From NCBI GenBank assembly GCA_032433765.1, contig JAVIAB010000160.1:13358358-13422357 (forward strand): a stretch of 64,000 bases of DNA, in the 5' to 3' direction. Positions 13,009 through 63,548 of this stretch are shown one piece after another. Numbering within the stretch: position 1 is the stretch's first letter; each line of letters begins with the position of its first letter. Source of the DNA: Megaustenia siamemsis. Taxonomy: Eukaryota > Mollusca > Gastropoda > Stylommatophora > Ariophantidae. The notes beneath the pieces are model-generated. The model was not told the DNA's origin, made no database searches, and was given only the letters and a program-made list of their open reading frames with translations. The translations under genes were made by a program, and so were the position numbers.

Positions 13009-13637
13009 ATAAAAGAGTGGACAATATGTCACTGCTCATGGCAACTAGAGCCATTAGTTCTGATAGTCTAAAAGAGTGGACAATATGTCCCTGCTCATGG
13101 CAACTAGAACTATTAGTTCTGATAGTCTAAAAGAGTGGACAATATGTCACTGCTCATGGCAACTAAAACTATTAGTTCTGATAGTCTAAAAGAGTGGACA
13201 ATATGTCACTGCTCATGGCAACTAAAACTATTAGTTCTGATAGTCTAAAAGAGTGGACAATATGTCAATGCTCGTGGCAACTAGAGCTATTAGTTCTGAT
13301 AGTCTAAAAGAGTGGACAATATGCCACTGCTCATGGCAACTAGAACTATTAGTTCTGATAGTCTAAAAGAGTGGACAATATGCCACTGCTCATGGCAACT
13401 AGAACTATTAGTTCTGATAGTCTAAAAGAGTGGACAATATGCTACTGCTCATGGCAACTAGAACTATTAGTTCTGATAGTCTAAAAGAGTGGACAATATG
13501 CCACTGCTCATGGCAACTAGAACTATTATTTCTGATAGTCTAAAAGAGTGGACAATATGCCACTGCTCATGGCAACTAGAACTGTTAGTTCTGATAGTCT
13601 AAAAGAGTGGACAATATGCCACTGCTCATGGCAACTA
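13009..13637. repeat. 59-bp minisatellite, left part
   Basis: About 10-11 copies of a 59-bp unit (GTCTAAAAGAGTGGACAATA, then TGCCACTGCTCATGGCAACT, then AGAACTATTAGTTCTGATA). Each unit contains the near-palindrome GAACTATTAGTTC. The array is cut at a TA dinucleotide by the transposon 13638-15317 and resumes at 15318. Confidence 0.96.
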
Positions 13638-15317: not shown

Positions 15318-15452
15318 TAGAACTATTAGTTCTGATAGTCTAAATGGGTGGACAATTTGCCACTTCTCATGGCAGCTACAACTATTAGTTCTGATAATCT
15401 AAAAGAGTGGAAAATATGCCACTGCTCATGGCAACTAGAGCTAAAAAGTTCT
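15318..15452. repeat. 59-bp minisatellite, right part
   Basis: The array interrupted at 13637 continues here with about two and a third units, more diverged than the left ones (CACTTCTCATGGCAGCTAC), and fades near 15452. Confidence 0.92.
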
Positions 15453-30199: not shown

Positions 30200-31440
30200 C
30201 GCAGATTGTAGTCGCTTCAAAAGCTCTACCCACGAGGAAGGACTTCCCGGAAAACAAATCATTAGCATTTACCATCGAGAGAAGGAAAGGTAATGCGACA
30301 ACACCCAAACAGAACCACGCGCAGTGTGGGTTCAACAGCTCTGGACAGCATCCACCCTCCGATAAGGAAAACTCCCACACCAAAACCAAGACTCAGCCTG
30401 CCGTAGACGGAGTGTGTCAGCCACGGCGCAGGTTTAGGGGAAAAATCAGGACACGTACGCATAAACGAGTAATGACCATGCGACCAGCTCATCGTGCGTC
30501 ATGATGCGGTTCTTACCCCTCCATATACGAGTAATGACCATGCGACCAGCTCATCGTGCGTCATGATGCGGTTCTTACCCCTCCATATACGAGTAATGAC
30601 CATGCGACCAGCTCATCGTGTGTCATGATGCTGTTCTTACCCCTCCATATACGAGTAATGACCATGCGACCAGCTCATCGTGTGTCATGATGCTGTTCTT
30701 ACCCCTCCATATACGAGTAATGACCATACGACCAGCTCATCGTGTGTCATGATGCTGTTCTTACCCCTCCATATACGAGCACTGACCATGCGACCAGCTC
30801 ATCGTGTGTCATGATGCTGTTCTTACCCCTCCATATACGAGCACTGACCATGCGACCAGCTCATCGTGTGTCATGATGCTGTTCTTACCCCTCCATATAC
30901 GAGCACTGACCATGCGACCAGCTCATCGTGTGTCATGATGCTGTTCTTACCCCTCCATATACGAGCACTGACGATACAACAAGCTCATTGTGTATAATGA
31001 TGTTGTTCTTACCTCTCCATATACAAGCACTGACCATGCGACCAGCTCATCGTGTGTCATGATGTTGTTCTTACCTCTCCATATACGAGTAATGACCATG
31101 CGACCAGCTCATCGTGTGTCATGATGTTGTTCTTACCCCTCCATATACGAGTAATGACCATGCGACCAGCTCATCGTGTGTCATGATGTTGTTCTTACCT
31201 CTCCATATACGAGTAATGACCATGCGACCAGCTCATCGTGTGTCATGATGTTGTTCTTACCCCTCCATATACGAGTACTGACTGTCATGATGTTGTTCTT
31301 ACCCCTCCATATACGAGTACTGACGATACAACAAGCTCATCGTGTGTCATGATGCTGTTCTTACCTCTCAATATACAAGCACTGACCATACGACCAGCTC
31401 ACTGTGTCATGATGTTGATCTTTCCCCTCCGTCATGAAAT
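30200..31440. mobile_element. Dispersed element with internal 62-bp minisatellite, copy 2
   Basis: Second copy of the element at 8560-9630, with the same order of unique landmarks (ACCATCGAGAGAAGGAAAGG, GTGTGTCAGCCACGG, GGGAAAAATCAGGACACG), then the array, then CCTCCGTCATGAAATAGGAT. The array is more than twice as long as in copy 1. The short open frames here are not conserved between the copies and are not annotated. Confidence 0.7.
30465..31425. repeat. 62-bp minisatellite array 2 (~15 copies)
   Basis: Same unit as 9160-9597 (GAGTAATGACCATGCGACCA, GCTCATCGTGTGTCATGATG, TTACCCCTCCATATAC). Neighbouring copies start at 30529 and 30591. Sub-blocks carry shared variants (GATGCGG, then GATGCTG, then GATGTTG; GAGTAATG against GAGCACTG), showing local amplification in steps. 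One shortened unit lies near 31278. Confidence 0.96.
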
Positions 31441-37504: not shown

Positions 37505-37549
37505 CTACTGAGTAGTGCTCTGTGCACACCGTGAGCTGTGTGTTTCATC
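37505..37549 (-). mobile_element. Repeat R, left piece of the interrupted copy
   Basis: CTACTGAGTAGTGCTCTGTG and CACACCGTGAGCTGTG match 25688-25733. The last 9 bases, TGTTTCATC (37541-37549), are repeated at 40214-40222 on the other side of the tandem array. Confidence 0.85.
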
Positions 37550-40213
37550 GAGTGCTAACACATACTTCTTTGTTCTATTATTCCCTATTATCGCCTCGGA
37601 AGTTCCCCATATAATAATATTTATGTATTATTATTTGTACCCAGTATATAACCACTGGGAACTACTATTCGTGCTGTTTCGTCCAATAAATGTTTGTCTA
37701 CAACACAAGTATTCAGCCCTACTGGGAGATACTTGCATTAATAGGAAAGTACAAATATACAATTTATTTCCGGTCTGTGATCGTTACCCTATGCTATAGT
37801 CATTGAGATCGCCTTTCGTGGAAGACACTACTGCAATAGCCAATTTTTTAGTTGGCTGCGTGGCAGTGTACCAAGCGTTCGGCTTCTCGTGGCAAGGCGC
37901 GGTGCCACTGAGTACGGGTTCGATCCCACTTCGGACCATATATTGTTCTTCGTTTTTTTCTATTGTTGTTTGTCTGTCAATTTTTCCGAGTGCTAACACA
38001 TACTTCTTTGTTCTATTATTCCCTATTATCGCCTCGGAAGTTCCCCATATAATAATATTTATGTATTATTATTTGTACCCAGTATATAACCACTGGGAAC
38101 TACTATTCGTGCTGTTTCGTCCAATAAATGTTTGTCTACAACACAAGTATTCAGCCCTACTGGGAGATACTTGCATTAATAGGAAAGTACAAATATACAA
38201 TTTATTTCCGGTCTGTGATCGTTACCCTATGCTATAGTCATTGAGATCGCCTTTCGTGGAAGACACTACTGCAATAGCCAATTTTTTAGTTGGCTGCGTG
38301 GCAGTGTACCAAGCGTTCGGCTTCTCGTGGCAAGGCGCGGTGCCACTGAGTACGGGTTCGATCCCACTTCGGACCATATATTGTTCTTCGTTTTTTTCTA
38401 TTGTTGTTTGTCTGTCAATTTTTCCGAGTGCTAACACATACTTCTTTGTTCTATTATTCCCTATTATCGCCTCGGAAGTTCCCCATATAATAATATTTAT
38501 GTATTATTATTTGTACCCAGTATATAACCACTGGGAACTACTATTCGTGCTGTTTCGTCCAATAAATGTTTGTCTACAACACAAGTATTCAGCCCTACTG
38601 GGAGATACTTGCATTAATAGGAAAGTACAAATATACAATTTATTTCCGGTCTGTGATCGTTACCCTATGCTATAGTCATTGAGATCGCCTTTCGTGGAAG
38701 ACACTACTGCAATAGCCAATTTTTTAGTTGGCTGCGTGGCAGTGTACCAAGCGTTCGGCTTCTCGTGGCAAGGCGCGGTGCCACTGAGTACGGGTTCGAT
38801 CCCACTTCGGACCATATATTGTTCTTCGTTTTTTTCTATTGTTGTTTGTCTGTCAATTTTTCCGAGTGCTAACACATACTTCTTTGTTCTATTATTCCCT
38901 ATTATCGCCTCGGAAGTTCCCCATATAATAATATTTATGTATTATTATTTGTACCCAGTATATAACCACTGGGAACTACTATTCGTGCTGTTTCGTCCAA
39001 TAAATGTTTGTCTACAACACAAGTATTCAGCCCTACTGGGAGATACTTGCATTAATAGGAAAGTACAAATATACAATTTATTTCCGGTCTGTGATCGTTA
39101 CCCTATGCTATAGTCATTGAGATCGCCTTTCGTGGAAGACACTACTGCAATAGCCAATTTTTTAGTTGGCTGCGTGGCAGTGTACCAAGCGTTCGGCTTC
39201 TCGTGGCAAGGCGCGGTGCCACTGAGTACGGGTTCGATCCCACTTCGGACCATATATTGTTCTTCGTTTTTTTCTATTGTTGTTTGTCTGTCAATTTTTC
39301 CGAGTGCTAACACATACTTCTTTGTTCTATTATTCCCTATTATCGCCTCGGAAGTTCCCCATATAATAATATTTATGTATTATTATTTGTACCCAGTATA
39401 TAACCACTGGGAACTACTATTCGTGCTGTTTCGTCCAATAAATGTTTGTCTACAACACAAGTATTCAGCCCTACTGGGAGATACTTGCATTAATAGGAAA
39501 GTACAAATATACAATTTATTTCCGGTCTGTGATCGTTACCCTATGCTATAGTCATTGAGATCGCCTTTCGTGGAAGACACTACTGCAATAGCCAATTTTT
39601 TAGTTGGCTGCGTGGCAGTGTACCAAGCGTTCGGCTTCTCGTGGCAAGGCGCGGTGCCACTGAGTACGGGTTCGATCCCACTTCGGACCATATATTGTTC
39701 TTCGTTTTTTTCTATTGTTGTTTGTCTGTCAATTTTTCCGAGTGCTAACACATACTTCTTTGTTCTATTATTCCCTATTATCGCCTCGGAAGTTCCCCAT
39801 ATAATAATATTTATGTATTATTATTTGTACCCAGTATATAACCACTGGGAACTACTATTCGTGCTGTTTCGTCCAATAAATGTTTGTCTACAACACAAGT
39901 ATTCAGCCCTACTGGGAGATACTTGCATTAATAGGAAAGTACAAATATACAATTTATTTCCGGTCTGTGATCGTTACCCTATGCTATAGTCATTGAGATC
40001 GCCTTTCGTGGAAGACACTACTGCAATAGCCAATTTTTTAGTTGGCTGCGTGGCAGTGTACCAAGCGTTCGGCTTCTCGTGGCAAGGCGCGGTGCCACTG
40101 AGTACGGGTTCGATCCCACTTCGGACCATATATTGTTCTTCGTTTTTTTCTATTGTTGTTTGTCTGTCAATTTTTCCGAGTGCTAACACATACTTCTTTG
40201 TTCTATTATTCCC
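37550..40213. mobile_element. Inserted tandem multimer: 6 x 438 bp + 36 bp, 9-bp target duplication
   Basis: It starts GAGTGCTAACACATACTTCT and ends with the same first 36 bases of the unit (...TTCTATTATTCCC). Its length, 2,664 bp, is exactly 6 x 438 + 36. The flanks carry TGTTTCATC on both sides, and the repeat-R copy at 25688-25998 shows the unoccupied arrangement. Units appear identical: the same 144-residue open frame recurs at 438-base steps from 37803. That frame has no family resemblance and is not called a gene. Each unit holds a tRNA-like region, and hairpins such as AGTTCCC...GGGAACT and AGCCAA...TTGGCT. No protein for movement is encoded, so it must have used enzymes from elsewhere. 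Confidence 0.92.
37845..37938 (+). other. tRNA-like (Pol III promoter-like) segment, one per 438-bp unit
   Basis: A box-A-like TGGCTGCGTGGC at 37853 and a box-B-like GGTTCGATCCC at 37917 are ~64 bases apart, the spacing of class-II tRNAs (Ser/Leu) with a long variable arm. The acceptor and T stems do not pair well, so this is a tRNA-derived relic, not a working tRNA. It recurs every 438 bp (about 38283, 38721, 39159, 39597, 40035). Confidence 0.6.
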
Positions 40214-40490
40214 TGTTTCATCCGGATGGTGTTTCTAAATCCAGATTTCTTACGATGAATGATGGTATCGTATGACGAAAGAGAGTTTAGTTGCGTTCAC
40301 TATCGGTGCTATAATACGCATTACGTCTTTTGACGTGTGCTGTGTTTGCTACGCTGGGGACTGCAACTTCCTTTCTTGGTTTGGATACTCGATGAGATGT
40401 TAATTCGGATGATTCCACTGGCACGGGCGGTTTAGCAATTATGGGTTTCCATTCGTTTGCAGTGATACCGAGGCCTTCGAATGACAATAA
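40214..40490 (-). mobile_element. Repeat R, right piece of the interrupted copy
   Basis: Continues repeat R after the tandem insert: TTTCATCCGGATGGTGTTTC, TTACGATGAATGATGG, ACGTCTTTTGACGTGTGCTG, and GGCACGGGCGGTTTAGCAAT on to about 40485. The minus strand encodes ITANEWKPIIAKPPVPVESS, similar to the peptide of 25688-25998. Confidence 0.8.
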
Positions 40491-42748: not shown

Positions 42749-42754
42749 AATGTG
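42749..42754. repeat. Target duplication AATGTG, left
   Basis: AATGTG lies directly before the first base of the 20.8-kb inverted structure and is repeated at 63543-63548 directly after its last base. Confidence 0.8.
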
Positions 42755-43885
42755 AGTAGTATAGCAGGAAGGATTTGACCCGTATTTAGGCGCTAAATTA
42801 ACAAAGATATATAGTAGGCGCGCGGCGCGCCTAATGTACCGTAGGCGCAGGGGGAGTTGACCGTGACATTTCGTGGCCGGATATTGACCGCTAGTCCAGG
42901 TGCTCCGTATTTTAAAAATTCCGAATTATTTTAAAAAAACAGTCTCCATCTGATTTCGAACACGGGTCTACGGCGTGCCAGGCCAGACACTTACCACTAT
43001 GCTACAGGCGATCACAGAATTAGAGGCTGAATGAGACAGGTGAAGCGTGAGGCTTTTGTTGGTACCTGACAGCTAGCTAGTAGTAGAGAAAGATTGACCC
43101 GCATTTAGGCGCTAAATTAACAAAGATATATAGGGCGGCACGCGGCGTGCATAAACCGGGCAGCGCAGGGGGAGTTAACCATGACATTTCGTGTCGGGAT
43201 GCCTGGTGACCGCTCGTTGACCTCTCAACCTCTCGGCGCCATGGGCGGGGTGAGCTCTCGTAGTGGGGGACCTGTTATGATCAAAGACCCTATTTCTCTG
43301 TGAAATTTCTCACTTGGGTAACTTAAGCTGGTCTAGCCGTCTAACAGAGAGACAGTAAATTAATGTACTTTTGATATTCTATTACTGTTGTGCTTTTTTT
43401 TTTTTTTTGTAGTGGTTGTAGTAATAGTAGTAGTAGTTAAAGTCGTTATTGAAGTTGTACAACTAGTGTGACTTGTATTTTGTAGAGTTATAACAGACAA
43501 GTGGGGGCTATGCCTTTTTTTTCATGTATAGTAGAGAGATGGTAGAGTCTTATAGTTATTTTTATGCATGACAACTTTAATGTATCTATAAAATTCATTT
43601 TGAAATTAATGGAAACATACAACTTACTCAGGGCTTGGCCAACTAACAGCAACGGTCTTGCTAATATATTTAACCCGTGGAAACATCAGCATCATGAGAC
43701 TTATTAATGTCCAAATTGAACGCTTGTTCATAACACGGAGACGACAGCGATGATGACTTTAACGGGTACACAATCAAAGATCCCGTGGGTTTTGTTTTAG
43801 TCGATGACAACTTTTGAAATAGTAGCTGACAACTTTTGTATTAGCAGATGACAGCTTTCAATGACTGTTTACATGCTATGTCATT
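42755..43885. repeat. Left outer arm of the foldback element
   Basis: It contains two copies of a ~125-bp segment (42773-42900 and 43085-43205). Both have GGCGCTAAATTAACAAAGAT, a GC-rich self-complementary core (GGCGCGCGGCGCGCC in the first), then GCAGGGGGAGTT and GACATTTCGTG. A tRNA-like sequence lies between them. The arm also has a T-run (about 43387-43400), AGT triplets, and GACAACTTTTG repeats (43806-43855) before the satellite. Confidence 0.9.
42950..43018 (-). other. tRNA-derived segment in left arm
   Basis: The minus strand has the box-A-like TAGCATAGTGGTAAG and the box-B-like TGTTCGAAATC at tRNA-Ala/Gly-like spacing, with an anticodon-like loop CTGGCAC on a GGC/GCC stem. The T stem does not pair, so it is a SINE-type relic. 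The identical mirror copy is at 63282-63350. Confidence 0.6.
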
Positions 43886-46800
43886 GTAGCAGTCATGTAT
43901 GTCATGTCGATGTAGTAGACACGTATGTCATGTCATTGTAACAGTCATGTCAATGTAACAGTTATTTCGTTGTAATAGTCATCTCGTTGTAACAGTCACG
44001 GGTGTCATGTCGTTTTATCAGATACGTATGGTATGTCGTTGTAACAGTCATTTCGTTGTAATAGTCATCTCGTTGTAACAGACACGTATGTCATGTCGTT
44101 TTATCAGAGACGTATGGTATGTCGTTGTAACAGACATGTCGTTGTATCAGTCATATCGATGTAGTAGACACGTATGTCATGTCATTGTAACAGTCATGTC
44201 AATGTAACAGTCATGTCAATGTAACAGTCATTTCGTTGTAATAGTCATCTCGTTGTAACAGTCACGTATGTCATGTCGTTTTATCAGACACGTATGGTAT
44301 GTCGTTGTAACAGACATGTCGTTGTATCAGGCATGTCGATGTAGTAGACACGTATGTCATGTCATTGTAACAGTCATGTCAATGTAACAGTCATGTCAAT
44401 GTAACAGTCATTTCGTTGTAATAGTCATCTCGTTGTGACAGTCATGTATGTCATGTCGTTTTATCAGAGACGTATGGTATGTCGTTGTAACAGACATGTC
44501 GTTGTATCAGTCATGTCGATGTAGTAGACACGTATGTCATATCATTGTAACAGTCATGTCAATGTAACAGTCATTTCGTTGTAATAGTCATCTCTTTGTA
44601 ACAGACACGTATGTCATGTGGTTTTATCAGACACATATGGTATGTCGTTGTAACAGACATGTCGTTGTATCAGTCATGTCTATGTAGTAGACACGTATGT
44701 CATGTCATTGTAACAGGCATGTCAATGTAACAGTCATGTCAATGTAACAGTCATTTCGTTGTAATAGTCATCTCGTTGTAACAGGCACGTATGTCATGTC
44801 GTTTTATCAGAGACGTATGGTATGTCGTTGTAACAGACATGTCGTTGTATCAGTCATGTCGATGTAGTAGACACGTATGTCATGTCATTGTAACAGTCAT
44901 GTCAATGTAACAGTCATTTCGTTGTAATAGTCATCTCGTTGTAACAGACATGTATGTCATGTCGTTTTATCAGTGACGTATGGTATGTCGTTGTAACAGA
45001 CATGTCGTTGTATCAGTCATGTCGATGTAGTAGACACGTATGGCATGTCATTGTAAGAGGCATGTCAATGTAACAGTCATGTCAATGTAACAGTCATTTC
45101 GTTGTAATAGTCATCTCGTTGTAACAGTCACGTATGGCATGTCGTTTTATCAGAGACGTATGGTATGTCGTTGTAACAGACATGTCGTTGTATCATTCAT
45201 GTCGATGTAGTAGACACGTATGTCATGTCATTGTAACAGTCATGTCAATGTAACAGTCATTTCGTTGTAATAGTCATCTCGTTGTAACAGACATGTATGT
45301 CATGTCGTTTTATCAGTGACGTATGGTATGTCGTTGTAACAGACATGTCGTTGTATCATTCATGTCGATGTAGTAGACACGTATGTCATGTCATTGTAAC
45401 AGTCATGTCAATGTAACAGTCATTTCGTTGTAATAGTCATCTCGTTGTAACAGACATGTATGTCATGTCGTTTTATTAGTGACGTATGGTATGTCGTTGT
45501 AACAGACATGTCGTTGTATCAGTCATGTCGATGTAGTAGACACGTATGTCATGTCATTGTAACAATCATATCAATGTAACAGTCATGTCAATGTAACAGT
45601 CATTTCGTTGTAATAGTCATCTCGTTGTAACAGTCACGTATGGCATGTCGTTTTATCAGAGACGTATGGTATGTCGTTGTAACAGACATGTCGTTGTATC
45701 AGTCATGTCGATGTAGTAGACACGTATGGCATGTCATTGTAAGAGGCATGTCAATGTAACAGTCATGTCAATGTAACAGTCATTTCGTTGTAATAGTCAT
45801 CTCGTTGTAACAGTCACGTATGTCATGTCGTTTTATCAGAGACGTATGGTATGTCGTTGTAACAGACATGTCGTTGTATCATTCATGTCGATGTAGTAGA
45901 CACGTATGTCATGTCATTGTAACAGTCATGTCAATGTAACAGTCATTTCGTTGTAATAGTCATCTCGATGTAACAGACACGTATGTCATGTCATTGTAAC
46001 AGTCATGTCAATGTAACAGTAATTTCATTGTAATAGTCATCTCGTTGTAACAGTCACGTATGTCATGTCGTTTTATCAGAGACGTATGGTATGTCGTTGT
46101 AACAGACATGTCGTTGTATCAGTCATGTCGATGTAGTAGACACGTATGTCATGTTGTTGTAACAGACACGTATGGTATGTCGTTGTAACAGACATGTCAT
46201 TGTATCAGGCATGTCGATGTAGTAGACACGTATGTCATGTCATTGTAACAGTCATGTCAATGTAACAGTCATGACAATGTAACAGTCATTTCGTTGTAAT
46301 AGTCATCTGGTTGTAACAGTCACGTATGTCATGTCGTTTTATCAGAGACGTATGGTATATCGTTGTAACAGACATGTCGTTGTATCAGTCATGTCGATGT
46401 AGTAGACACGTATGTCATGTCATTGTAACAGTCATGTCAATGTAACAGTCATGTCAATGTAACAGTCATTTCGTTGTAATAGTCATCTCGTTGTAACAGT
46501 CACGTATGTTATGTCGTTTGTCAGAGACGTATGGTATGACGTTGTAACAGACATGTCGTTGTATCAGGCATGCCGATGTAGTAGACACGTATGTCATGTC
46601 ATTGTAACAGTCATGTCAATGTAACAGTCATTTCGTTGTAATAGTCATCTCGTTGTAACAGACACGTATGTCATGTCGTTTTATCAGACACGTATGGTAT
46701 GTCGTTGTAACAGACATGTCGTTGTATCAGTCATGTCGATGTAGTAGACACGTATGTCATGTCATTGTAACAGTCATGTCAATGTAACGGTCATGTCAAT

Positions 46801-47355
46801 GTAACAGTCATTTCGTTGTAATAGTCATCTCGTTGTAACAGTCACGTATGTCATGTCGTTTTATCAGACACGTATGGTATGTCGTTGTAACAGACATGTC
46901 GTTGTATCAGTCATGTCGATGTAGTAGACACGTATGGCATGTCATTGTAACAGTCATGTCAATGTAACAGTCATGTCAATGTAACAGTCATTTCGTTGTA
47001 ATAGTCATCTCGTTGTAACAGCCACGTATGTCATGTAGTTTTATCAGAGACGTATGGTATGTCGTTGTAACAGACATGTCGTTGTATCAGTCATGTCGAT
47101 GTAGTAGACACGTATGTCATGTCATTGTAACAGTCATGCCAATGTAACAGTCTTTTCGTTGTAATAGTCATCTCGTTGTAACAGACACGTATGTCATGTC
47201 GTTGTAACAGACACGTATGTCATGTCGTTTATCAGAGACGTATGGTATGTCGTTGTAACAGACATGTCCATGTATCAGTCATATCGATGTAGTAGACACG
47301 TATGTCATGTCATTGTAACAGTCATGTCAGTGTAACAGTCATGTCAATGTAACAC
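43886..47355. repeat. Left satellite array (163/180-bp units)
   Basis: The unit carries GATGTAGTAGACACGTATG, CATTGTAACAGTCATGTC, AATGTAACAGTCAT, TTTCGTTGTAATAGTCATC, GTTTTATCAGAGACGTATGG and TGTCGTTGTATCAG. GATGTAGTAG starts at 44338, 44518, 44681, 44861 and 45024. Spacings of 180 and 163 thus alternate, the difference being one 17-bp sub-motif (GTCAATGTAACAGTCAT). About 20 units are present. Confidence 0.95.
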
Positions 47356-47653
47356 GTGTCAGTTCTGTTGTTAACTGTTTTCCATGTCATGTCGTTGTAG
47401 TAGTCATAGGTGTCACACCGTCGTATGTATGTTGTCCAGTGTGACATGATAGTTGTATGTAGGTTGTCTAGTGTGTCGTGATGGCTGTATGTAGATTGTC
47501 TAGTGTGTCGTGATCTTCATACAGCCATCACGACACACTAGACAACCTACATACAACTATCATGTCACACTGGACAACATACAAACGACGGTGTGACACC
47601 TATGACTACTACAACGAAATGACATGGAAAACAGTTAACAACAGAACTGACAC
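47356..47653. repeat. Central palindrome with 26-bp spacer
   Basis: Arms 47356-47491 and 47518-47653 are reverse complements around the spacer 47492-47517. The spacer repeats a phrase of the arm (TGTCTAGTGTGTCGTGAT). The arms differ at a few positions (for example GTCATGTCG against the mirror of GAAATGACA, and GTCGTATG against GTCGTTTG). Confidence 0.95.
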
Positions 47654-50600
47654 GTGTTACATTGACATGACTGTTACACTGACATGACTGTTACAATGAC
47701 ATGACATACGTGTCTACTACATCGATATGACTGATACATGGACATGTCTGTTACAACGACATACCATACGTCTCTGATAAACGACATGACATACGTGTCT
47801 GTTACAACGACATGACATACGTGTCTGTTACAACGAGATGACTATTACAACGAAATGACTGTTACATTGACATGACTGTTACAATGACATGACATACGTG
47901 TCTACTACATCGACATGACTGATACAACGACATGTCTGTTACAACGACATACCATACTTCTCTGATAAAACTACATGACATACGTGACTGTTACAACGAG
48001 ATGACTATTACAACGAAATGACTGTTACATTGACATGACTGTTACATTGACATGACTGTTACAATGACATGCCATACGTGTCTACTACATCGACATGACT
48101 GATACAACGACATGTCTGTTACAACGACATACCATACGTGTCTGATAAAACGACATGACATACGTGACTGTTACAACGAGATGACTATTACAACGAAATG
48201 ACTGTTACATTGACATGACCGTTACATTGACATGACTGTTACAATGACATGACATACGTGTCTACTACATCGACATGACTGATACAACGACATGTCTGTT
48301 ACAACGACATACCATACGTGTCTGATAAAACGACATGACATACGTGTCTGTTACAACGAGATGACTATTACAACGAAATGACTGTTACATTGACATGACT
48401 GTTACAATGACATGACATACGTGTCTACTACATCGGCATGCCTGATACAACGACATGTCTGTTACAACGTCATACCATACGTCTCTGACAAACGACATAA
48501 CATACGTGACTGTTACAACGAGATGACTATTACAACGAAATGACTGTTACATTGACATGACTGTTACATTGACATGACTGTTACAATGACATGACATACG
48601 TGTCTACTACATCGACATGACTGATACAACGACATGTCTGTTACAACGATATACCATACGTCTCTGATAAAACGACATGACATACGTGACTGTTACAACC
48701 AGATGACTATTACAACGAAATGACTGTTACATTGTCATGACTGTTACATTGACATGACTGTTACAATGACATGACATACGTGTCTACTACATCGACATGC
48801 CTGATACAATGACATGTCTGTTACAACGACATACCATACGTGTCTGTTACAACGACATGACATACGTGTCTACTACATCGACATGACTGATACAACGACA
48901 TGTCTGTTACAACGACATACCATACGTCTCTGATAAAACGACATGACATACGTGACTGTTACAACGAGATGACTATTACAATGAAATTACTGTTACATTG
49001 ACATGACTGTTACAATGACATGACATACGTGTCTGTTACATCGAGATGACTATTACAACGAAATGACTGTTACATTGACATGACTGTTAAAATGACATGA
49101 CATACGTGTCTACTACATCGACATGAATGATACAACGACATGTCTGTTACAACGACAAGCCATACGTCTCTGATAAAACGACATGACATACGTGACTGTT
49201 ACAACGAGATGACTATTACAACGAAATGACTGTTACATTGACATGACTGTTACATTGACATGCCTCTTACAATGACATGCCATACGTGTCTACTACATCG
49301 ACATGACTGATACAACGACATGTCTGTTACAACGACATACCATACGTCTCTGATAAAACGACATGCCATACGTGACTGTTACAACGAGATGACTATTACA
49401 ACGAAATGACTGTTACATTGACATGACTGTTACATTGATATGACTGTTACAATGACATGACATACGTGTCTACTACATCGACCTGACTGATATAACGACA
49501 TGTCTGTTACAACGACATACCATACGTCACTGATAAAACAACATGACATACATGTCTGTTACAACGAGATGACTATTACAACGAAATGACTGTTACATTG
49601 ACATGACTGTTACAATGACATGACATACGTGTCTACTACATCGACATGACTGATACAACGACATGTCTGTTACAACGACATACCATACGTGTCTGATAAA
49701 ACGACATGACATACGTGACTGTTACAACGAGATGACTATTACAACGAAATGACTGTTACATTGACATGACTGTTACAATGACATGACATACGTGTCTACT
49801 ACATCGACATGACTGATACAACGACATGTCTGTTACAACGACATACCATACTTCTCTGATAAAACTACATGACATACGTGACTGTTACAACGAGATGACT
49901 ACTCCAACGAAATGACTGTTACATTGACATGACTGTTACATTGACATGACTGTTACAATGACATGCCATACGTGTCTACTACATCGACATGACTGATACA
50001 ACGACATGTCTGTTACAACGACATACCATACGTGTCTGATAAAACGACATGACATACGTGACTGTTACAACGAGATGACTATTACAACGAAATGACTGTT
50101 ACATTGACATGACCGTTACATTGACATGACTGTTACAATGACATGACATACGTGTCTACTACATCGACATGACTGATACAACGACATGTCTGTTACAACG
50201 ACATACCATACGTGTCTGATAAAACGACATGACATACGTGTCTGTTACAACGAGATGACTATTACAACGAAATGACTGTTACATTGACATGACTGTTACA
50301 ATGACATGACATACGTGTCTACTACATCGGCATGCCTGATACAACGACATGTCTGTTACAACGTCATACCATACGTCTCTGACAAACGACATAACATACG
50401 TGACTGTTACAACGAGATGACTATTACAACGAAATGACTGTTACATTGACATGACTGTTACATTGACATGACTGTTACAATGACATGACATACGTGTCTA
50501 CTACATCGACATGACTGATACAACGACATGTCTGTTACAACGATATACCATACGTCTCTGATAAAACGACATGACATACGTGACTGTTACAACCAGATGA

Positions 50601-53600
50601 CTATTACAACGAAATGACTGTTACATTGTCATGACTGTTACATTGACATGACTGTTACAATGACATGACATACGTGTCTACTACATCGACATGCCTGATA
50701 CAATGACATGTCTGTTACAACGACATACCATACGTGTCTGTTACAACGACATGACATACGTGTCTACTACATCGACATGACTGATACAACGACATGTCTG
50801 TTACAACGACATACCATACGTCTCTGATAAAACGACATGACATACGTGACTGTTACAACGAGATGACTATTACAATGAAATTACTGTTACATTGACATGA
50901 CTGTTACAATGACATGACATACGTGTCTGTTACATCGAGATGACTATTACAACGAAATGACTGTTACATTGACATGACTGTTACAATGACATGACATACG
51001 TGTCTACTACATCGACATGAATGATACAACGACATGTCTGTTACAACGACAAGCCATACGTCTCTGATAAAACGACATGACATACGTGACTGTTACAACG
51101 AGATGACTATTACAACGAAATGACTGTTACATTGACATGACTGTTACATTGACATGCCTCTTACAATGACATGCCATACGTGTCTACTACATCGACATGA
51201 CTGATACAACGACATGTCTGTTACAACGACATACCATACTTCTCTGATAAAACGACATGCCATACGTGACTGTTACAACGAGATGACTATTACAACGAAA
51301 TGACTGTTACATTGACATGACTGTTACATTGATATGACTGTTACAATGACATGACATACGTGTCTACTACATCGACCTGACTGATATAACGACATGTCTG
51401 TTACAACGACATACCATACGTCACTGATAAAACAACATGACATACATGTCTGTTACAACGAGATGACTATTACAACGAAATGACTGTTACATTGACATGA
51501 CTGTTACAATGACATGACATACGTGTCTACTACATCGACATGACTGATACAACGACATGTCTGTTACAACGACATACCATACGTGTCTGATAAAACGACA
51601 TGACATACGTGACTGTTACAACGAGATGACTATTACAACGAAATGACTGTTACATTGACATGACTGTTACAATGACATGACATACGTGTCTACTACATCG
51701 GCATGCCTGATACAACGACATGTCTGTTACAACGTCATACCATACGTCTCTGACAAACGACATAACATACGTGACTGTTACAACGAGATGACTATTACAA
51801 CGAAATGACTGTTACATTGTCATGACTGTTACATTGACATGACTGTTACAATGACATGACATACGTGTCTACTACATCGACATGCCTGATACAATGACAT
51901 GTCTGTTACAACGACATACCATACGTGTCTGTTACAACGACATGACATACGTGTCTACTACATCGACATGACTGATACAACGACATGTCTGTTACAACGA
52001 CATACCATACGTCTCTGATAAAACGACATGACATACGTGACTGTTACAACGAGATGACTATTACAATGAAATTACTGTTACATTGACATGACTGTTACAA
52101 TGACATGACATACGTGTCTGTTACATCGAGATGACTATTACAACGAAATGACTGTTACATTGACATGACTGTTAAAATGACATGACATACGTGTCTACTA
52201 CATCGACATGAATGATACAACGACATGTCTGTTACAACGACAAGCCATACGTCTCTGATAAAACGACATGACATACGTGACTGTTACAACGAGATGACTA
52301 TTACAACGAAATGACTGTTACATTGACATGACTGTTACATTGATATGACTGTTACAATGACATGACATACGTGTCTACTACATCGACCTGACTGATATAA
52401 CGACATGTCTGTTACAACGACATACCATACGTCACTGATAAAACAACATGACATACATGTCTGTTACAACGAGATGACTATTACAACGAAATGACTGTTA
52501 CATTGACATGACTGTTACAATGACATGACATACGTGTCTACTACATCGACATGACTGATACAACGACATGTCTGTTACAACGACATACCATACGTGTCTG
52601 ATAAAACGACATGACATACGTGACTGTTACAACGAGATGACTATTACAACGAAATGACTGTTACATTGACATGACTGTTACAATGACATGACATACGTGT
52701 CTACTACATCGACATGACTGATACAACGACATGTCTGTTACAACGACATACCATACTTCTCTGATAAAACTACATGACATACGTGACTGTTACAACGAGA
52801 TGACTACTCCAACGAAATGACTGTTACATTGACATGACTGTTACATTGACATGACTGTTACAATGACATGCCATACGTGTCTACTACATCGACATGACTG
52901 ATACAACGACATGTCTGTTACAACGACATACCATACGTGTCTGATAAAACGACATGACATACGTGACTGTTACAACGAGATGACTATTACAACGAGATGA
53001 CTATTACAACGAATGACTGTTACATTGACATGACTGTTACAATGACATGACATACGTGTCTACTACATCGACATGACTGATACAACGACATGTCTGTTAC
53101 AACGACATACCATACTTCTCTGATAAAACTACATGACATACGTGACTGTTACAACGAGATGACTACTCCAACGAAATGACTGTTACATTGACATGACTGT
53201 TACATGACATGACTGTTACAATGACATGCCATACGTGTCTACTACATCGACATGACTGATACAACGACATGTCTGTTACAACGACATACCATACGTGTCT
53301 GATAAAACGACATGACATACGTGACTGTTACAACGAGATGACTATTACAACGAAATGACTGTTACATTGACATGACCGTTACATTGACATGACTGTTACA
53401 ATGACATGACATACGTGTCTACTACATCGACATGACTGATACAACGACATGTCTGTTACAACGACATACCATACGTGTCTGATAAAACGACATGACATAC
53501 GTGTCTGTTACAACGAGATGACTATTACAACGAAATGACTGTTACATTGACATGACTGTTACAATGACATGACATACGTGTCTACTACATCGGCATGCCT

Positions 53601-56600
53601 GATACAACGACATGTCTGTTACAACGTCATACCATACGTCTCTGACAAACGACATAACATACGTGACTGTTACAACGAGATGACTATTACAACGAAATGA
53701 CTGTTACATTGACATGACTGTTACATTGACATGACTGTTACAATGACATGACATACGTGTCTACTACATCGACATGACTGATACAACGACATGTCTGTTA
53801 CAACGATATACCATACGTCTCTGATAAAACGACATGACATACGTGACTGTTACAACGAGATGACTATTACAACGAAATGACTGTTACATTGTCATGACTG
53901 TTACATTGACATGACTGTTACAATGACATGACATACGTGTCTACTACATCGACATGCCTGATACAATGACATGTCTGTTACAACGACATACCATACGTGT
54001 CTGTTACAACGACATGACATACGTGTCTACTACATCGACATGACTGATACAACGACATGTCTGTTACAACGACATACCATACGTCTCTGATAAAACGACA
54101 TGACATACGTGACTGTTACAACGAGATGACTATTACAATGAAATTACTGTTACATTGACATGACTGTTACAATGACATGACATACGTGTCTGTTACATCG
54201 AGATGACTATTACAACGAAATGACTGTTACATTGACATGACTGTTACAATGACATGACATACGTGTCTACTACATCGACATGAATGATACAACGACATGT
54301 CTGTTACAACGACAAGCCATACGTCTCTGATAAAACGACATGACATACGTGACTGTTACAACGAGATGACTATTACAACGAAATGACTGTTACATTGACA
54401 TGACTGTTACATTGACATGCCTCTTACAATGACATGCCATACGTGTCTACTACATCGACATGACTGATACAACGACATGTCTGTTACAACGACATACCAT
54501 ACTTCTCTGATAAAACGACATGCCATACGTGACTGTTACAACGAGATGACTATTACAACGAAATGACTGTTACATTGACATGACTGTTACATTGATATGA
54601 CTGTTACAATGACATGACATACGTGTCTACTACATCGACCTGACTGATATAACGACATGTCTGTTACAACGACATACCATACGTCACTGATAAAACAACA
54701 TGACATACATGTCTGTTACAACGAGATGACTATTACAACGAAATGACTGTTACATTGACATGACTGTTACAATGACATGACATACGTGTCTACTACATCG
54801 ACATGACTGATACAACGACATGTCTGTTACAACGACATACCATACGTGTCTGATAAAACGACATGACATACGTGACTGTTACAACGAGATGACTATTACA
54901 ACGAAATGACTGTTACATTGACATGACTGTTACAATGACATGACATACGTGTCTACTACATCGGCATGCCTGATACAACGACATGTCTGTTACAACGTCA
55001 TACCATACGTCTCTGACAAACGACATAACATACGTGACTGTTACAACGAGATGACTATTACAACGAAATGACTGTTACATTGTCATGACTGTTACATTGA
55101 CATGACTGTTACAATGACATGACATACGTGTCTACTACATCGACATGCCTGATACAATGACATGTCTGTTACAACGACATACCATACGTGTCTGTTACAA
55201 CGACATGACATACGTGTCTACTACATCGACATGACTGATACAACGACATGTCTGTTACAACGACATACCATACGTCTCTGATAAAACGACATGACATACG
55301 TGACTGTTACAACGAGATGACTATTACAATGAAATTACTGTTACATTGACATGACTGTTACAATGACATGACATACGTGTCTGTTACATCGAGATGACTA
55401 TTACAACGAAATGACTGTTACATTGACATGACTGTTAAATGACATGACATACGTGTCTACTACATCGACATGAATGATACAACGACATGTCTGTTACAAC
55501 GACAAGCCATACGTCTCTGATAAAACGACATGACATACGTGACTGTTACAACGAGATGACTATTACAACGAAATGACTGTTACATTGACATGACTGTTAC
55601 ATTGATATGACTGTTACAATGACATGACATACGTGTCTACTACATCGACCTGACTGATATAACGACATGTCTGTTACAACGACATACCATACGTCACTGA
55701 TAAAACAACATGACATACATGTCTGTTACAACGAGATGACTATTACAACGAAATGACTGTTACATTGACATGACTGTTACAATGACATGACATACGTGTC
55801 TACTACATCGACATGACTGATACAACGACATGTCTGTTACAACGACATACCATACGTGTCTGATAAAACGACATGACATACGTGACTGTTACAACGAGAT
55901 GACTATTACAACGAAATGACTGTTACATTGACATGACTGTTACAATGACATGACATACGTGTCTACTACATCGACATGACTGATACAACGACATGTCTGT
56001 TACAACGACATACCATACTTCTCTGATAAAACTACATGACATACGTGACTGTTACAACGAGATGACTACTCCAACGAAATGACTGTTACATTGACATGAC
56101 TGTTACATTGACATGACTGTTACAATGACATGCCATACGTGTCTACTACATCGACATGACTGATACAACGACATGTCTGTTACAACGACATACCATACGT
56201 GTCTGATAAAACGACATGACATACGTGACTGTTACAACGAGATGACTATTACAACGAAATGACTGTTACATTGACATGACCGTTACATTGACATGACTGT
56301 TACAATGACATGACATACGTGTCTACTACATCGACATGACTGATACAACGACATGTCTGTTACAACGACATACCATACGTGTCTGATAAAACGACATGAC
56401 ATACGTGTCTGTTACAACGAGATGACTATTACAACGAAATGACTGTTACATTGACATGACTGTTACAATGACATGACATACGTGTCTACTACATCGGCAT
56501 GCCTGATACAACGACATGTCTGTTACAACGTCATACCATACGTCTCTGACAAACGACATAACATACGTGACTGTTACAACGAGATGACTATTACAACGAA

Positions 56601-59600
56601 ATGACTGTTACATTGACATGACTGTTACATTGACATGACTGTTACAATGACATGACATACGTGTCTACTACATCGACATGACTGATACAACGACATGTCT
56701 GTTACAACGATATACCATACGTCTCTGATAAAACGACATGACATACGTGACTGTTACAACCAGATGACTATTACAACGAAATGACTGTTACATTGTCATG
56801 ACTGTTACATTGACATGACTGTTACAATGACATGACATACGTGTCTACTACATCGACATGCCTTATACAATGACATGTCTGTTACAACGACATACCATAC
56901 GTGTCTGTTACAACGACATGACATACGTGTCTACTACATCGACATGACTGATACAACGACATGTCTGTTACAACGACATACCATACGTCTCTGATAAAAC
57001 GACATGACATACGTGACTGTTACAACGAGATGACTATTACAATGAAATTACTGTTACATTGACATGACTGTTACAATGACATGACATACGTGTCTGTTAC
57101 ATCGAGATGACTATTACAACGAAATGACTGTTACATTGACATGACATGACATGACGTGTCTACTACATCGACATGAATGATACAACGACATGTCTGTTAC
57201 AACGACAAGCCATACGTCTCTGATAAAACGACATGACATACGTGACTGTTACAACGAGATGACTATTACAACGAAATGACTGTTACATTGACATGACTGT
57301 TACATTGACATGCCTCTTACAATGACATGCCATACGTGTCTACTACATCGACATGACTGATACAACGACATGTCTGTTACAACGACATACCATACGTCTC
57401 TGATAAAACGACATGCCATACGTGACTGTTACAACGAGATGACTATTACAACGAAATGACTGTTACATTGACATGACTGTTACATTGATATGACTGTTAC
57501 AATGACATGACATACGTGTCTACTACATCGACCTGACTGATATAACGACATGTCTGTTACAACGACATACCATACGTCACTGATAAAACAACATGACATA
57601 CATGTCTGTTACAACGAGATGACTATTACAACGAAATGACTGTTACATTGACATGACTGTTACAATGACATGACATACGTGTCTACTACATCGACATGAC
57701 TGATACAACGACATGTCTGTTACAACGACATACCATACGTGTCTGATAAAACGACATGACATACGTGACTGTTACAACGAGATGACTATTACAACGAAAT
57801 GACTGTTACATTGACATGACTGTTACAATGACATGACATACGTGTCTACTACATCGGCATGCCTGATACAACGACATGTCTGTTACAACGTCATACCATA
57901 CGTCTCTGACAAACGACATAACATACGTGACTGTTACAACGAGATGACTATTACAACGAAATGACTGTTACATTGTCATGACTGTTACATTGACATGACT
58001 GTTACAATGACATGACATACGTGTCTACTACATCGACATGCCTGATACAATGACATGTCTGTTACAACGACATACCATACGTGTCTGTTACAACGACATG
58101 ACATACGTGTCTACTACATCGACATGACTGATACAACGACATGTCTGTTACAACGACACACCATACGTCTCTGATAAAACGACATGACATACGTGACTGT
58201 TACAACGAGATGACTATTACAATGAAATTACTGTTACATTGACATGACTGTTACAATGACATGACATACGTGTCTACTACATCGACATGAATGATACAAC
58301 GACATGTCTGTTACAACGACATACCATACGTCTCTGATAAAACGACATGCCATACGTGACTGTCACAACGAGATGACTATTACAACGAAATGACTGTTAC
58401 ATTGACATGACTGTTACATTGACATGCCTCTTACAATGACATGCCATACGTGTCTACTACATCGACATGACTGATACAACGACATGTCTGTTACAACGAC
58501 ATACCATACGTCACTGATAAAACGACATGACATACATGTCTGTTACAACGAGATGACTATTACAACGAAATGACTGTTACATTGACATGACTGTTACAAT
58601 GACATGACATACGTGTCTACTACATCGACCTGACTGATATAACGACATGTCTGTTACAACGACATACCATACGTCACTGATAAAACAACATGACATACAT
58701 GTCTGTTACAACGAGATGACTATTACAACGAAATGACTGTTACATTGACATGACTGTTACAATGACATGACATACGTGTCTACTACATCGACATGACTGA
58801 TACAACGACATGTCTGTTACAACGACATACCATACGTGTCTGATAAAACGACATGACATACGTGACTGTTACAACGAGATGACTATTACAACGAAATGAC
58901 TGTTACATTGACATGACTGTTACAATGACATGACATACGTGTCTACTACATCGGCATGCCTGATACAACGACATGTCTGTTACAACGTCATACCATACGT
59001 CTCTGACAAACGACATAACATACGTGACTGTTACAACGAGATGACTATTACAACGAAATGACTGTTACATTGTCATGACTGTTACATTGACATGACTGTT
59101 ACAATGACATGACATACGTGTCTACTACATCGACATGCCTGATACAATGACATGTCTGTTACAACGACATACCATACGTGTCTGTTACAACGACATGACA
59201 TACGTGTCTACTACATCGACATGACTGATACAACGACATGTCTGTTACAACGACACACCATACGTCTCTGATAAAACGACATGACATACGTGACTGTTAC
59301 AACGAGATGACTATTACAATGAAATTACTGTTACATTGACATGACTGTTACAATGACATGACATACGTGTCTACTACATCGACATGAATGATACAACGAC
59401 ATGTCTGTTACAACGACATACCATACGTCTCTGATAAAACGACATGCCATACGTGACTGTCACAACGAGATGACTATTACAACGAAATGACTGTTACATT
59501 GACATGACTGTTACATTGACATGCCTCTTACAATGACATGCCATACGTGTCTACTACATCGACATGACTGATACAACGACATGTCTGTTACAACGACATA

Positions 59601-62412
59601 CCATACGTCACTGATAAAACGACATGACATACATGTCTGTTACAACGAGATGACTATTACAACGAAATGACTGTTACATTGACATGACTGTTACAATGAC
59701 ATGACATACGTGTCTACTACATCGACATGAATGATACAACGACATGTCTGTTACAACGACATACCATACGTCTCTGATAAAACGACATGCCATACGTGAC
59801 TGTTACAACGAGATGACTATTACAACGAAATGACTGTTACATTGACATGACTGTTACATTGACATGACTGTTACAATGACATGCCATACGTGTCTACTAC
59901 ATCGACATGAATGATACAACGACATGTCTGTTACAACGACATACCATACGTCTCTGATAAAACGACATGCCATACGTGACTGTCACAACGAGATGACTAT
60001 TACAACGAAATGACTGTTACATTGACATGACTGTTACATTGACATGCCTCTTACAATGACATGCCATACGTGTCTACTACATCGACATGACTGATACAAC
60101 GACATGTCTGTTACAACGACATACCATACGTCACTGATAAAACGACATGACATACATGTCTGTTACAACGAGATGACTATTACAACGAAATGACTGTTAC
60201 ATTGACATGACTGTTACAATGACATGACATACGTGTCTACTACATCGACATGAATGATACAACGACATGTCTGTTACAACGACATACCATACGTCTCTGA
60301 TAAAACGACATGCCATACGTGACTGTTACAACGAGATGACTATTACAACGAAATGACTGTTACATTGACATGACTGTTACATTGACATGCCTCTTACAAT
60401 GACATGCCATACGTGTCTACTACATCGACATGACTGATACAACGACATGTCTGTTACAACGACATACCATACGTCACTGATAAAACGACATGACATACAT
60501 GTCTGTTACAACGAGATGACTATTACAACGAAATGACTGTTACATTGACATGACTGTTACAATGACATGACATACGTGTCTACTACATCGACATGACTGA
60601 TACAACGACATGTCTGTTACAACGACATACCATACGTCTCTGATAAAACGACATGACATACGTGCCTGTTACAACGAGATGACTATTACAACGAAATGAC
60701 TGTTACATTGACATGACTGTTACATTGACATGCCTGTTACAATGACATGACATACGTGTCTACTACATAGACATGACTGATACAACGACATGTCTGTTAC
60801 AACGACATACCATATGTGTCTGATAAAACCACATGACATACGTGTCTGTTACAAAGAGATGACTATTACAACGAAATGACTGTTACATTGACATGACTGT
60901 TACAATGATATGACATACGTGTCTACTACATCGACATGACTGATACAACGACATGTCTGTTACAACGACATACCATACGTCTCTGATAAAACGACATGAC
61001 ATACATGACTGTCACAACGAGATGACTATTACAACGAAATGACTGTTACATTGACATGACTGTTACATTGACATGACTGTTACAATGACATGCCATACGT
61101 GTCTACTACATCGACATGAATGATACAACGACATGTCTGTTACAACGACATACCATACGTCACTGATAAAACGACATGACATACATGTCTGTTACAACGA
61201 GATGACTATTACAACGAAATGACTGTTACATTGACATGACTGTTACAATGACATGACATACGTGTCTACTACATCGACATGAATGATACAACGACATGTC
61301 TGTTACAACGACATAGCATACGTCTCTGATAAAACGACATGCCATACGTGACTGTTACAACGAGATGACTATTACAACGAAATGACTGTTACATTGACAT
61401 GACTGTTACATTGACATGCCTCTTACAATGACATGCCATACGTGTCTACTACATCGACATGACTGATACAACGACATGTCTGTTACAACGACATACCATA
61501 CGTCACTGATAAAACGACATGACATACATGTCTGTTACAACGAGATGACTATTACAACGAAATGACTGTTACATTGACATGACTGTTACAATGACATGAC
61601 ATACGTGTCTACTACATCGACATGACTGATACAACGACATGTCTGTTACAACGACATACCATACGTCTCTGATAAAACGACATGACATACGTGCCTGTTA
61701 CAACGAGATGACTATTACAACGAAATGACTGTTACATTGACATGACTGTTACATTGACATGCCTGTTACAATGACATGACATACGTGTCTACTACATAGA
61801 CATGACTGATACAACGACATGTCTGTTACAACGACATACCATATGTGTCTGATAAAACCACATGACATACGTGTCTGTTACAAAGAGATGACTATTACAA
61901 CGAAATGACTGTTACATTGACATGACTGTTACAATGATATGACATACGTGTCTACTACATCGACATGACTGATACAACGACATGTCTGTTACAACGACAT
62001 ACCATACGTCTCTGATAAAACGACATGACATACATGACTGTCACAACGAGATGACTATTACAACGAAATGACTGTTACATTGACATGACTGTTACATTGA
62101 CATGACTGTTACAATGACATGACATACGTGTCTACTACATCGATATGACTGATACAACGACATGTCTGTTACAACGACATACCATACGTCTCTGATAAAA
62201 CGACATGACATACGTGTCTGTTACAACGAGATGACTATTACAACGAAATGACTGTTACAACGACATACCATACGTATCTGATAAAACGACATGACACCCG
62301 TGACTGTTACAACGAGATGACTATTACAACGAAATAACTGTTACATTGACATGACTGTTACAATGACATGACATACGTGTCTACTACATCGACATGACAT
62401 ACATGACTGCTA
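47654..62412. repeat. Right satellite array, inverted and re-amplified
   Basis: The same satellite as the left array in reverse orientation, ~14.8 kb against ~3.5 kb. The part nearest the centre mirrors the left array position for position (left variant GGCATGCCGATG at 46567-46578, mirror at 48431-48442). That variant then recurs at 50325, 51696, 53588, 54959, 56492, 57852 and 58949. The spacings are 1894, 1371, 1892, 1371, 1533, 1360 and 1097 bp, which shows large block duplications. Confidence 0.93.
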
Positions 62413-63542
62413 CAATGACATAGCATGTAAACAGTCATTGAAAGCTGTCATCTGCTAATACAAAAGTTGTCAGCTACTATTTCAAAAGTTGTCATCGACT
62501 AAAACAAAACCCACGGGATCTTTGATTGTGTACCCGTTAAAGTCATCATCGCTGTCGTCTCCGTGTTATGAACAAGCGTTCAATTTGGACATTAATAAGT
62601 CTCATGATGCTGATGTTTCCACGGGTTAAATATATTAGCAAGACCGTTGCTGTTAGTTGGCCAAGCCCTGAGTAAGTTGTATGTTTCCATTAATTTCAAA
62701 ATGAATTTTATAGATACATTAAAGTTGTCATGCATAAAAATAACTATAAGACTCTACCATCTCTCTACTATACATGAAAAAAAAGGCATAGCCCCCACTT
62801 GTCTGTTATAACTCTACAAAATACAAGTCACACTAGTTGTACAACTTCAATAACGACTTTAACTACTACTACTATTACTACAACCACTACAAAAAAAAAA
62901 AAAAGCACAACAGTAATAGAATATCAAAAGTACATTAATTTACTGTCTCTCTGTTAGACGGCTAGACCAGCTTAAGTTACCCAAGTGAGAAATTTCACAG
63001 AGAAATAGGGTCTTTGATCATAACAGGTCCCCCACTACGAGAGCTCACCCCGCCCATGGCGCCGAGAGGTTGAGAGGTCAACGAGCGGTCACCAGGCATC
63101 CCGACACGAAATGTCATGGTTAACTCCCCCTGCGCTGCCCGGTTTATGCACGCCGCGTGCCGCCCTATATATCTTTGTTAATTTAGCGCCTAAATGCGGG
63201 TCAATCTTTCTCTACTACTAGCTAGCTGTCAGGTACCAACAAAAGCCTCACGCTTCACCTGTCTCATTCAGCCTCTAATTCTGTGATCGCCTGTAGCATA
63301 GTGGTAAGTGTCTGGCCTGGCACGCCGTAGACCCGTGTTCGAAATCAGATGGAGACTGTTTTTTAAAATAATTCGGAATTTTTAAAATACGGAGCACCTG
63401 GACTAGCGGTCAATATCCGGCCACGAAATGTCACGGTCAACTCCCCCTGCGCCTACGGTACATTAGGCGCGCCGCGCGCCTACTATATATCTTTGTTAAT
63501 TTAGCGCCTAAATACGGGTCAAATCCTTCCTGCTATACTACT
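62413..63542. repeat. Right outer arm of the foldback element
   Basis: Reverse complement of 42755-43885, including the duplicated GGCGCTAAATT segments, the GC-rich cores, the tRNA-like sequence (plus strand here, 63282-63350) and an A-run matching the left T-run. It ends CTATACTACT at 63542. Confidence 0.93.
63282..63350 (+). other. tRNA-derived segment in right arm
   Basis: Mirror of 42950-43018. Box-A-like TAGCATAGTGGTAAG is near 63294 and box-B-like TGTTCGAAATC at 63336-63346. It is a degenerate relic, not a working tRNA. Confidence 0.6.
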
Positions 63543-63548
63543 AATGTG
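63543..63548. repeat. Target duplication AATGTG, right
   Basis: Direct repeat of 42749-42754, immediately after the last base of the foldback element. Confidence 0.8.

Follow-up and report, generated by a model that had tools for sequence, protein, structure and literature searches.

Maverick/Polinton elements have been studied as virus-like, gene-rich elements. In vertebrates they end in (AGT)2//(ACT)2 or (AG)3//(CT)3, are flanked by 6-bp duplications, and have terminal inverted repeats of 46-1,447 bp and lengths of 12.7-24.6 kb (PMC8097293); the Maverick integrase is retroviral-like and the polymerase is protein-primed (PMC6431247). These and all other papers given by PMC number are cited for the excerpts available. 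The present report concerns an element with ends of this type in the 2.59-Gb genome (155 contigs) of the gastropod Megaustenia siamemsis. It lies in a stretch of 64,000 nucleotides, C155:13358358-13422357, which is called the window throughout, and occupies positions 42755-63542 of it as a foldback of 20,788 bp with AGTAGT/ACTACT termini. We read this element as a non-autonomous Maverick/Polinton derivative: an inverted satellite would have taken the place of its polymerase genes, and its integration would rely on an enzyme supplied in trans. The probability of this reading is put at roughly four in five.

A mobile family of satellite foldbacks

The window element is flanked on both sides by AATGTG (Table 1). 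The seventh flanking base differs (G vs T), so the duplication is exactly 6 bp, and random 6-mer pairs drawn from the window agree with a frequency of 0.0005. When the right end is inverted and compared with the left one over 1,500 bp from the terminus, identity is 99.87% and two gaps occur. An earlier sequence-only reading of the window had described the AATGTG pair, the mutually inverse ends and the inverted arms of ~1.1 kb, and was correct base for base. Between the arms the satellite has opposite orientations, forward in the left array of about 3.5 kb and inverted in the right one of about 14.8 kb, and the two arrays join at a near-perfect palindrome of 301 bp. The element has no stop-to-stop open frame above 150 amino acids (aa) and hence neither a polymerase nor an integrase frame.

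The element belongs to a mobile family. A genome search with the first 200 bp of the arm yielded 2,754 candidates, scoring was limited to the top 40, and 14 copies (the window element and 13 further ones) were compared as subfamily 1; ten single ends (L031-L040), for which no partner was fetched, are left out of the duplication counts. Further insertions, each with a 6-bp duplication of its own, had been foreseen and were found: the duplication is exact in 13 of the 14 copies, the window included, and agrees at 5/6 bases in C124b. The GGGGGG of copy C51 sits in a G run and is uninformative, and in C59b, where an extra end triplet intervenes, the duplication was identified by eye. Among the copies only one duplicated 6-mer recurs: AATGTG stands at both the window element and C59a, in unlike flanks. 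AGTAGT...ACTACT stands at both ends of 13 copies, the left end of C59b being a three-triplet variant. That end (C59:64703716), which begins AGTAATAGTATAGC, exceeds the family end by one triplet while the CCCGAG outside it is intact, and the extra triplet is a possible trace of a terminal triplet slide-back.

The order of arm, satellite, inverted satellite and arm is kept in 14/14 copies, and the 301-bp palindromic centre in all but one (C154). Long inverted arms, internal tandem repeats and a middle domain, the features of the foldback structural class, are thus all present. The arms measure ~1.1 kb and are 98.6-100% identical within a copy (n=13). Copies measured whole range from 7,750 to 20,788 bp (n=13), the window element being the longest because of its right array. 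Weak evidence of conversion between arms comes from four variants that occur in both arms of a single copy and nowhere else (three of them in the window); 146 variants, 63 of them substitutions, are private to one arm only. Outside the elements, the host flanks of the 13 subfamily-1 copies tested are unrelated, with 12-21 of 60 bases agreeing when one side is inverted.

The sequence-only reading had also named an empty site with a single 6-mer as support, and three insertions other than that of the window have a paralogous one. The empty site of C59a lies in the flank repeat of C105a and holds one AATGTG, that of C105a lies in the flank of C59a and holds one GCTGGG, and that of C143 lies in the flank of C51 and holds one CCTACG.

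Related ends and polymerase-bearing relatives

Ends related to those of the window element are spread through the genome. End-pattern searches matched 46, 156, 140, 385 (up to 2 mismatches) and 52 places, against 0, 0, 3, 0 and 3 for the respective reversed-pattern controls, and the related ends come to about 775 in total, with a few places counted twice. Among the 300 ends listed by the searches with 156, 140 and 385 matches, 238 fall in plus/minus pairs; of the neighbours less than 30 kb apart, 119 are plus/minus, 6 minus/minus, and 2 each plus/plus and minus/plus. The plus/minus pairs are spaced at medians of 9.4-10.4 kb (range 0.7-25.8 kb), and their interiors were read for a minority.

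Some of these ends enclose a DNA polymerase. For example, a subfamily-4 element (C25:18655377, partner end 18668250) is 84% identical to the window arm over 121 bp, and a 2-kb sample from inside it (L060) holds two pieces of a family-B DNA polymerase on the minus strand, in different frames. At E<=0.001 there are 302 relatives of the 385-aa piece, PF03175 being present in some, and 609 of the 300-aa piece. Aligned over 284 aa, the latter shares 54% identity with a Plakobranchus protein that scores 26.3 bits with PF03175, above the cut-off; its identity to a different PF03175 polymerase of the same genome is 28% (206 aa) and to L051, a locus itself above that cut-off, 90% (296 aa). The 385-aa piece is 72-86% identical to L051. 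Direct searches of the two pieces against Pfam and PHROGs (E<=1) gave zero Pfam matches and weak PHROGs matches only. A PF03175 profile search returned 12 matches at six loci, among them L051 (C124), which has the same polymerase family as L060.

With the 385-aa piece as query, 4,696 genome candidates were obtained, of which 107 were scored, at 88-100% identity. Fourteen pairs of neighbours closer than 10 kb occur among these 107, and all of them are minus-then-plus, that is, mirror images. Listed subfamily-4 end pairs, 11.8-12.9 kb apart, enclose three of the inverted pairs and, in a fourth element, a single match, so some of the coding relatives are themselves foldbacks that carry the polymerase twice. 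This arrangement, in which the coding relatives already are foldbacks with two inverted polymerase genes, was not foreseen by the sequence-only reading. Exact 6-bp duplications (CACATA, TCTGCT and ATTGTG) flank 3/3 polymerase-bearing copies. Stop-to-stop frames around some polymerase matches reach 1,473 aa and more.

The polymerase copies vary in length. In the C25 element the left-arm and right-arm copies are 98% identical over 365 aa, and the 385-aa frame, which ends in a break, is shared by the left copy only. The full 385 aa are matched by many of the other copies listed, in open frames of about 745 aa, and still others have an open frame of 1,473 aa.

The relic in L059 is the most direct sign of satellite replacing polymerase. 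L059 is the start of a subfamily-4 satellite copy (C107:70505214). A stretch of about 430 bp of it is 83.5% identical to a polymerase element (L058); the sequence that comes next corresponds to L058 644-709, about 270 bp further in, and is followed directly by the satellite. On the minus strand the frame of L058 reads ...GDYDKISCKGLSKQ..., and the relic in L059 reads ...YDKISCKGLS... The first 36 aa of the L058 frame recur at 97% in an open frame of L051 (2757-3590), which covers PF03175 positions 335-432 at 23.2 bits, slightly below the cut-off of 25.8, and lies downstream of a frame with PF03175 positions 72-260 (31.4 bits). From this recurrence, the L058/L059 frame is the 3' part of the polymerase. 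The 91-aa 3' piece itself had zero matches in Pfam and among the 360 proteins compared.

Another of the PF03175 loci was considered as a partner and rejected. This locus, C137, carries Endonuclease_7, rve and A32 genes, and the stretches of it that were read hold no related end or inverted repeat. The C137 integrase query led to a repeated element of a different kind, L056 (C91:161433600-161437900), whose listed matches do not lie near related ends or polymerase matches. The rve integrase that L056 encodes scores below the cut-off here; the element also has an A32 packaging ATPase, a protein with DUF5679 and likeness to phospholipase A2, and a helicase-like frame (AAA_30, 26.8 bits vs a cut-off of 27). 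The terminus of this kind of element was not visible in L057.

Origin of the satellite foldbacks

The shared ends, the polymerase-bearing relatives and the L059 relic together support a Maverick/Polinton derivative in which satellite has replaced coding DNA, as the sequence-only reading proposed. The Maverick type of the ends was likewise borne out, since (AGT)2//(ACT)2 with 6-bp duplications matches the vertebrate Mavericks (PMC8097293). The window element is classed here as a non-autonomous derivative with Maverick-type ends; it has none of the gene-based features that define a Maverick and is therefore not counted as a full member of that group. Its movement would have been brought about by enzymes acting in trans.

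Several results weigh against this reading. Autonomous elements with the same ends had been expected, and of their components the family-B polymerase, the related end and the 6-bp duplications were found and the integrase was not. For the one integrase type queried (1,871 candidates), 0/116 listed matches lie within 30 kb of the 107 listed polymerase matches and 0/116 within 30 kb of the 189 listed end places; for the A32 ATPase, 0/127 matches lie within 30 kb of those polymerase matches, and 99 of the 127 have a listed integrase match less than 10 kb away. It may be that the polymerase lineage, too, depends on another element for its integration, or that it has an integrase of another type than the one queried. 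The link between polymerase and ends is also partial: 79 of the 107 listed polymerase matches have no listed neighbour, only 4/40 of the listed subfamily-4 end pairs contain a listed polymerase match, and 3/14 of the inverted polymerase pairs lie between listed ends. Six other inverted pairs have no listed end on contigs whose end lists seem complete, so that polymerase foldbacks with other ends, outside the search patterns, exist.

The arms themselves add to these points. The likeness of the window arms to those of the polymerase elements is confined to ~120 bp and the nested end, no polymerase relic was found in the window and subfamily-2 arms with an incomplete polymerase as query, and the partner end of L059 was unseen. 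The replacement of polymerase by satellite is accordingly shown in a sister subfamily and not in that of the window, for which, given arms without a relic and with a different interior, it is suggested by kinship. The window insertion has no empty paralogue in the assembly, where the search returned its own two flanks only. Finally, arm copies without a 6-bp duplication had been named as an observation that would refute the sequence-only reading, and one such copy was seen, in subfamily 2 (C105:65462494-65480082, 17.6 kb). The 100-bp host flanks of this copy are perfect inverted copies of each other (L029, L030, L042), so the palindrome extends beyond the element into host DNA, through either a later inverted duplication or an assembly fold-back. 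This copy was also considered as a coding copy and rejected, its first 9 kb being satellite.

The Maverick/Polinton derivation would proceed in a few steps. A Maverick end with the adjacent polymerase gene would have become an inverted dimer, probably by snap-back of a protein-primed, strand-displaced copy, whose complementary ends would allow it to fold back and be converted into that form. A deletion between short repeats would then remove the polymerase, and a tandem repeat would expand at that place in both arms. For their replication the resulting satellite palindromes would depend on a Maverick polymerase and for their insertion on an integrase of Maverick type, both made elsewhere, and the length of their arrays would later drift by slippage or unequal exchange. 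The end triplets and the three-triplet variant of C59b would fit slide-back priming, which is known from other protein-primed systems.

A bolder version of this derivation is put forward tentatively, at somewhat worse than even odds. It supposes a Maverick lineage with a self-complementary, inverted-dimer genome and a borrowed integrase, which sheds satellite progeny like defective interfering genomes through protein-primed replication. Such a lineage would have two outward-facing polymerase genes and no integrase or packaging ATPase of its own, would replicate by snap-back, and would be outnumbered by its satellite progeny, in which inverted satellite takes the position of the polymerase. Its end triplets would permit slide-back protein priming, and protein-primed replication would be what both produces satellites and spreads them.

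Among the rival explanations, the one that survives best, though unlikely, is an independent non-autonomous satellite foldback that exchanged ends with the polymerase foldbacks, with no replacement having taken place in the window's subfamily. Such an exchange would agree with arms that have only the outer ~120 bp in common with the polymerase elements and differ in their interiors, and with the nested second end in the arm, which shows that ends are stacked or swapped. It is at odds with L059, where about 430 bp of common arm and a displaced scrap of polymerase coding sequence lie flush with the satellite, and with the foldback layout common to polymerase and satellite elements.

Still less probable is a foldback of another superfamily (Mutator, P, hAT or IS3EU-like) with convergent 6-bp duplications, whose ends the polymerase elements then acquired. 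Some hAT and IS3EU elements make 6-bp duplications, and no integrase of the one type queried lies beside the listed polymerase copies. The duplications of 7-10 bp by which Mutator and P foldbacks are recognised, a range that includes the length of P-element duplications, differ from the 6 bp of the window element. Foldbacks have mostly been assigned to Mutator, and Galileo to P (PMC4079207), but the 8-10-bp duplications of Tetris, a clue to Mutator for its authors, are again longer than 6 bp (PMC4079207). The 4-bp duplications and TGTNR ends of Ginger elements (PMC2836005) are both lacking here. Moreover, the ends fit the Maverick (AGT)2//(ACT)2 motif, and elements with the same ends encode a family-B polymerase. 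An assembly fold-back artefact or a one-off inverted segmental duplication, to which the perfectly inverted host flanks of the subfamily-2 copy (over the 100 bp read) would lend some colour, is scarcely credible and is already contradicted for the window's subfamily by the unrelated outer flanks and direct 6-bp repeats of the 13 tested copies and by the three insertions with paralogous empty sites.

Features of the window

The features of the element are collected in Table 1. The nested, diverged (AGT)2 end lies 324 bp inside each window arm, being mirrored in the right arm, and looks as though one end had been stacked onto another. A tRNA-like stretch with A- and B-box-like motifs was noticed by eye on the minus strand of the arm (~42950-43017) and is perhaps a fragment of a short interspersed element; ARAGORN called no tRNA, there or elsewhere. 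The outer ~37 bp of the palindromic centre (47355-47391 and 47619-47654) recur at L053 4707-4743, near the C137 Maverick, and in the right host flank of copy C103, so the outer part of the centre is not confined to foldback elements. Rfam matches at the centre (mir-8489, mir-9 and mir-784) are below the gathering score and were rejected as due to the palindrome itself.

Table 1. Positions of the features of the foldback element within the window
Feature	Position	Strand
Left target-site duplication AATGTG, 6 bp	42749..42754	
Left arm, non-satellite terminal inverted repeat, begins AGTAGTATAGCAGG	42755..43877	+
Outermost ~128 bp of the arm, the end domain; 84% identical to a polymerase-bearing element over 121 bp	42755..42882	+
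Nested second (AGT)2 end at arm position 325, about 82% like the terminus	43079..43199	+
Left satellite array, forward, periods of 17/26/60/180/343 bp	43878..47354	+
Palindromic centre, 301 bp	47355..47655	
Right satellite array, inverted orientation	47656..62421	-
Right arm, inverted copy of the left arm, ends ...CTATACTACT	62422..63542	-
Right target-site duplication AATGTG, 6 bp	63543..63548	

Other repeats of the window lie outside the element. About six identical-looking tandem units of 438 bp occupy 37549-40214 and include five open frames of 145 codons, one per unit. A 62-bp satellite forms two separate arrays (9163-9598 and 30460-31282), as does a 59-bp satellite (13010-13637 and 15321-15437). 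On the minus strand, 34556-36505 holds a reverse transcriptase frame of 650 aa that is 54-65% identical to the best-listed reverse transcriptase (PF00078) proteins.

Comparison with known systems

Where Mavericks are otherwise gene-rich, a lineage of them appears here to have shed its genes and turned into a palindromic carrier of satellite, with coding relatives of the satellite foldbacks persisting in the same genome. This offers a route for the origin of dispersed satellite arrays, which automatic annotation may well label plain satellite. It also makes testable the action of a Maverick integrase in trans, the formation of palindromic genomes in protein-primed replication, and the rise of foldback architecture outside the Mutator- and P-type transposons.

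The window element resembles the vertebrate Mavericks in its ends, its 6-bp duplication, its ~1.1-kb arms and its length of 20.8 kb, which is within their range (PMC8097293). The encoded family-B polymerase is likewise a common feature, but it belongs to the elements with related ends. Unlike these Mavericks, the window element is gene-free and its interior is an inverted satellite; 12 of the 13 whole-measured subfamily-1 copies are shorter than the Maverick minimum of 12.7 kb (PMC8097293); and the polymerase-bearing relatives are built as foldbacks around a pair of inverted polymerase genes and have no integrase or A32 match listed in their vicinity.

Long inverted arms with internal tandem repeats are also found in Tetris (PMC4079207) and Galileo (PMC3573991). 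Tetris is without coding capacity and has fed a satellite (PMC4079207). Unlike the window element, it makes 8-10-bp duplications and is assigned to Mutator, and Galileo is assigned to P. The available excerpts on these two mention no foldback of the Maverick kind. Similarly, the non-autonomous Cg_HINE Helentrons of the oyster disperse satellite-like arrays, but the available excerpts of that paper do not describe them as inverted foldbacks or as Maverick-related (PMC7492417). The oyster satellite CgiSat52 is annotated as similar to DNA/Polinton; it differs in an apparent unit of 1,656 bp and, in the text available, in having no inverted satellite within a mobile element (PMC8268682). No non-autonomous, satellite-bearing, foldback or palindromic Maverick appeared among the papers listed by searches of the open-access literature. 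A parallel in kind is given by the Large retrotransposon derivatives, in which the coding DNA between functional ends has been replaced and movement takes place in trans (PMC6431247). They differ in having long terminal repeat ends and an RNA intermediate (PMC6431247).

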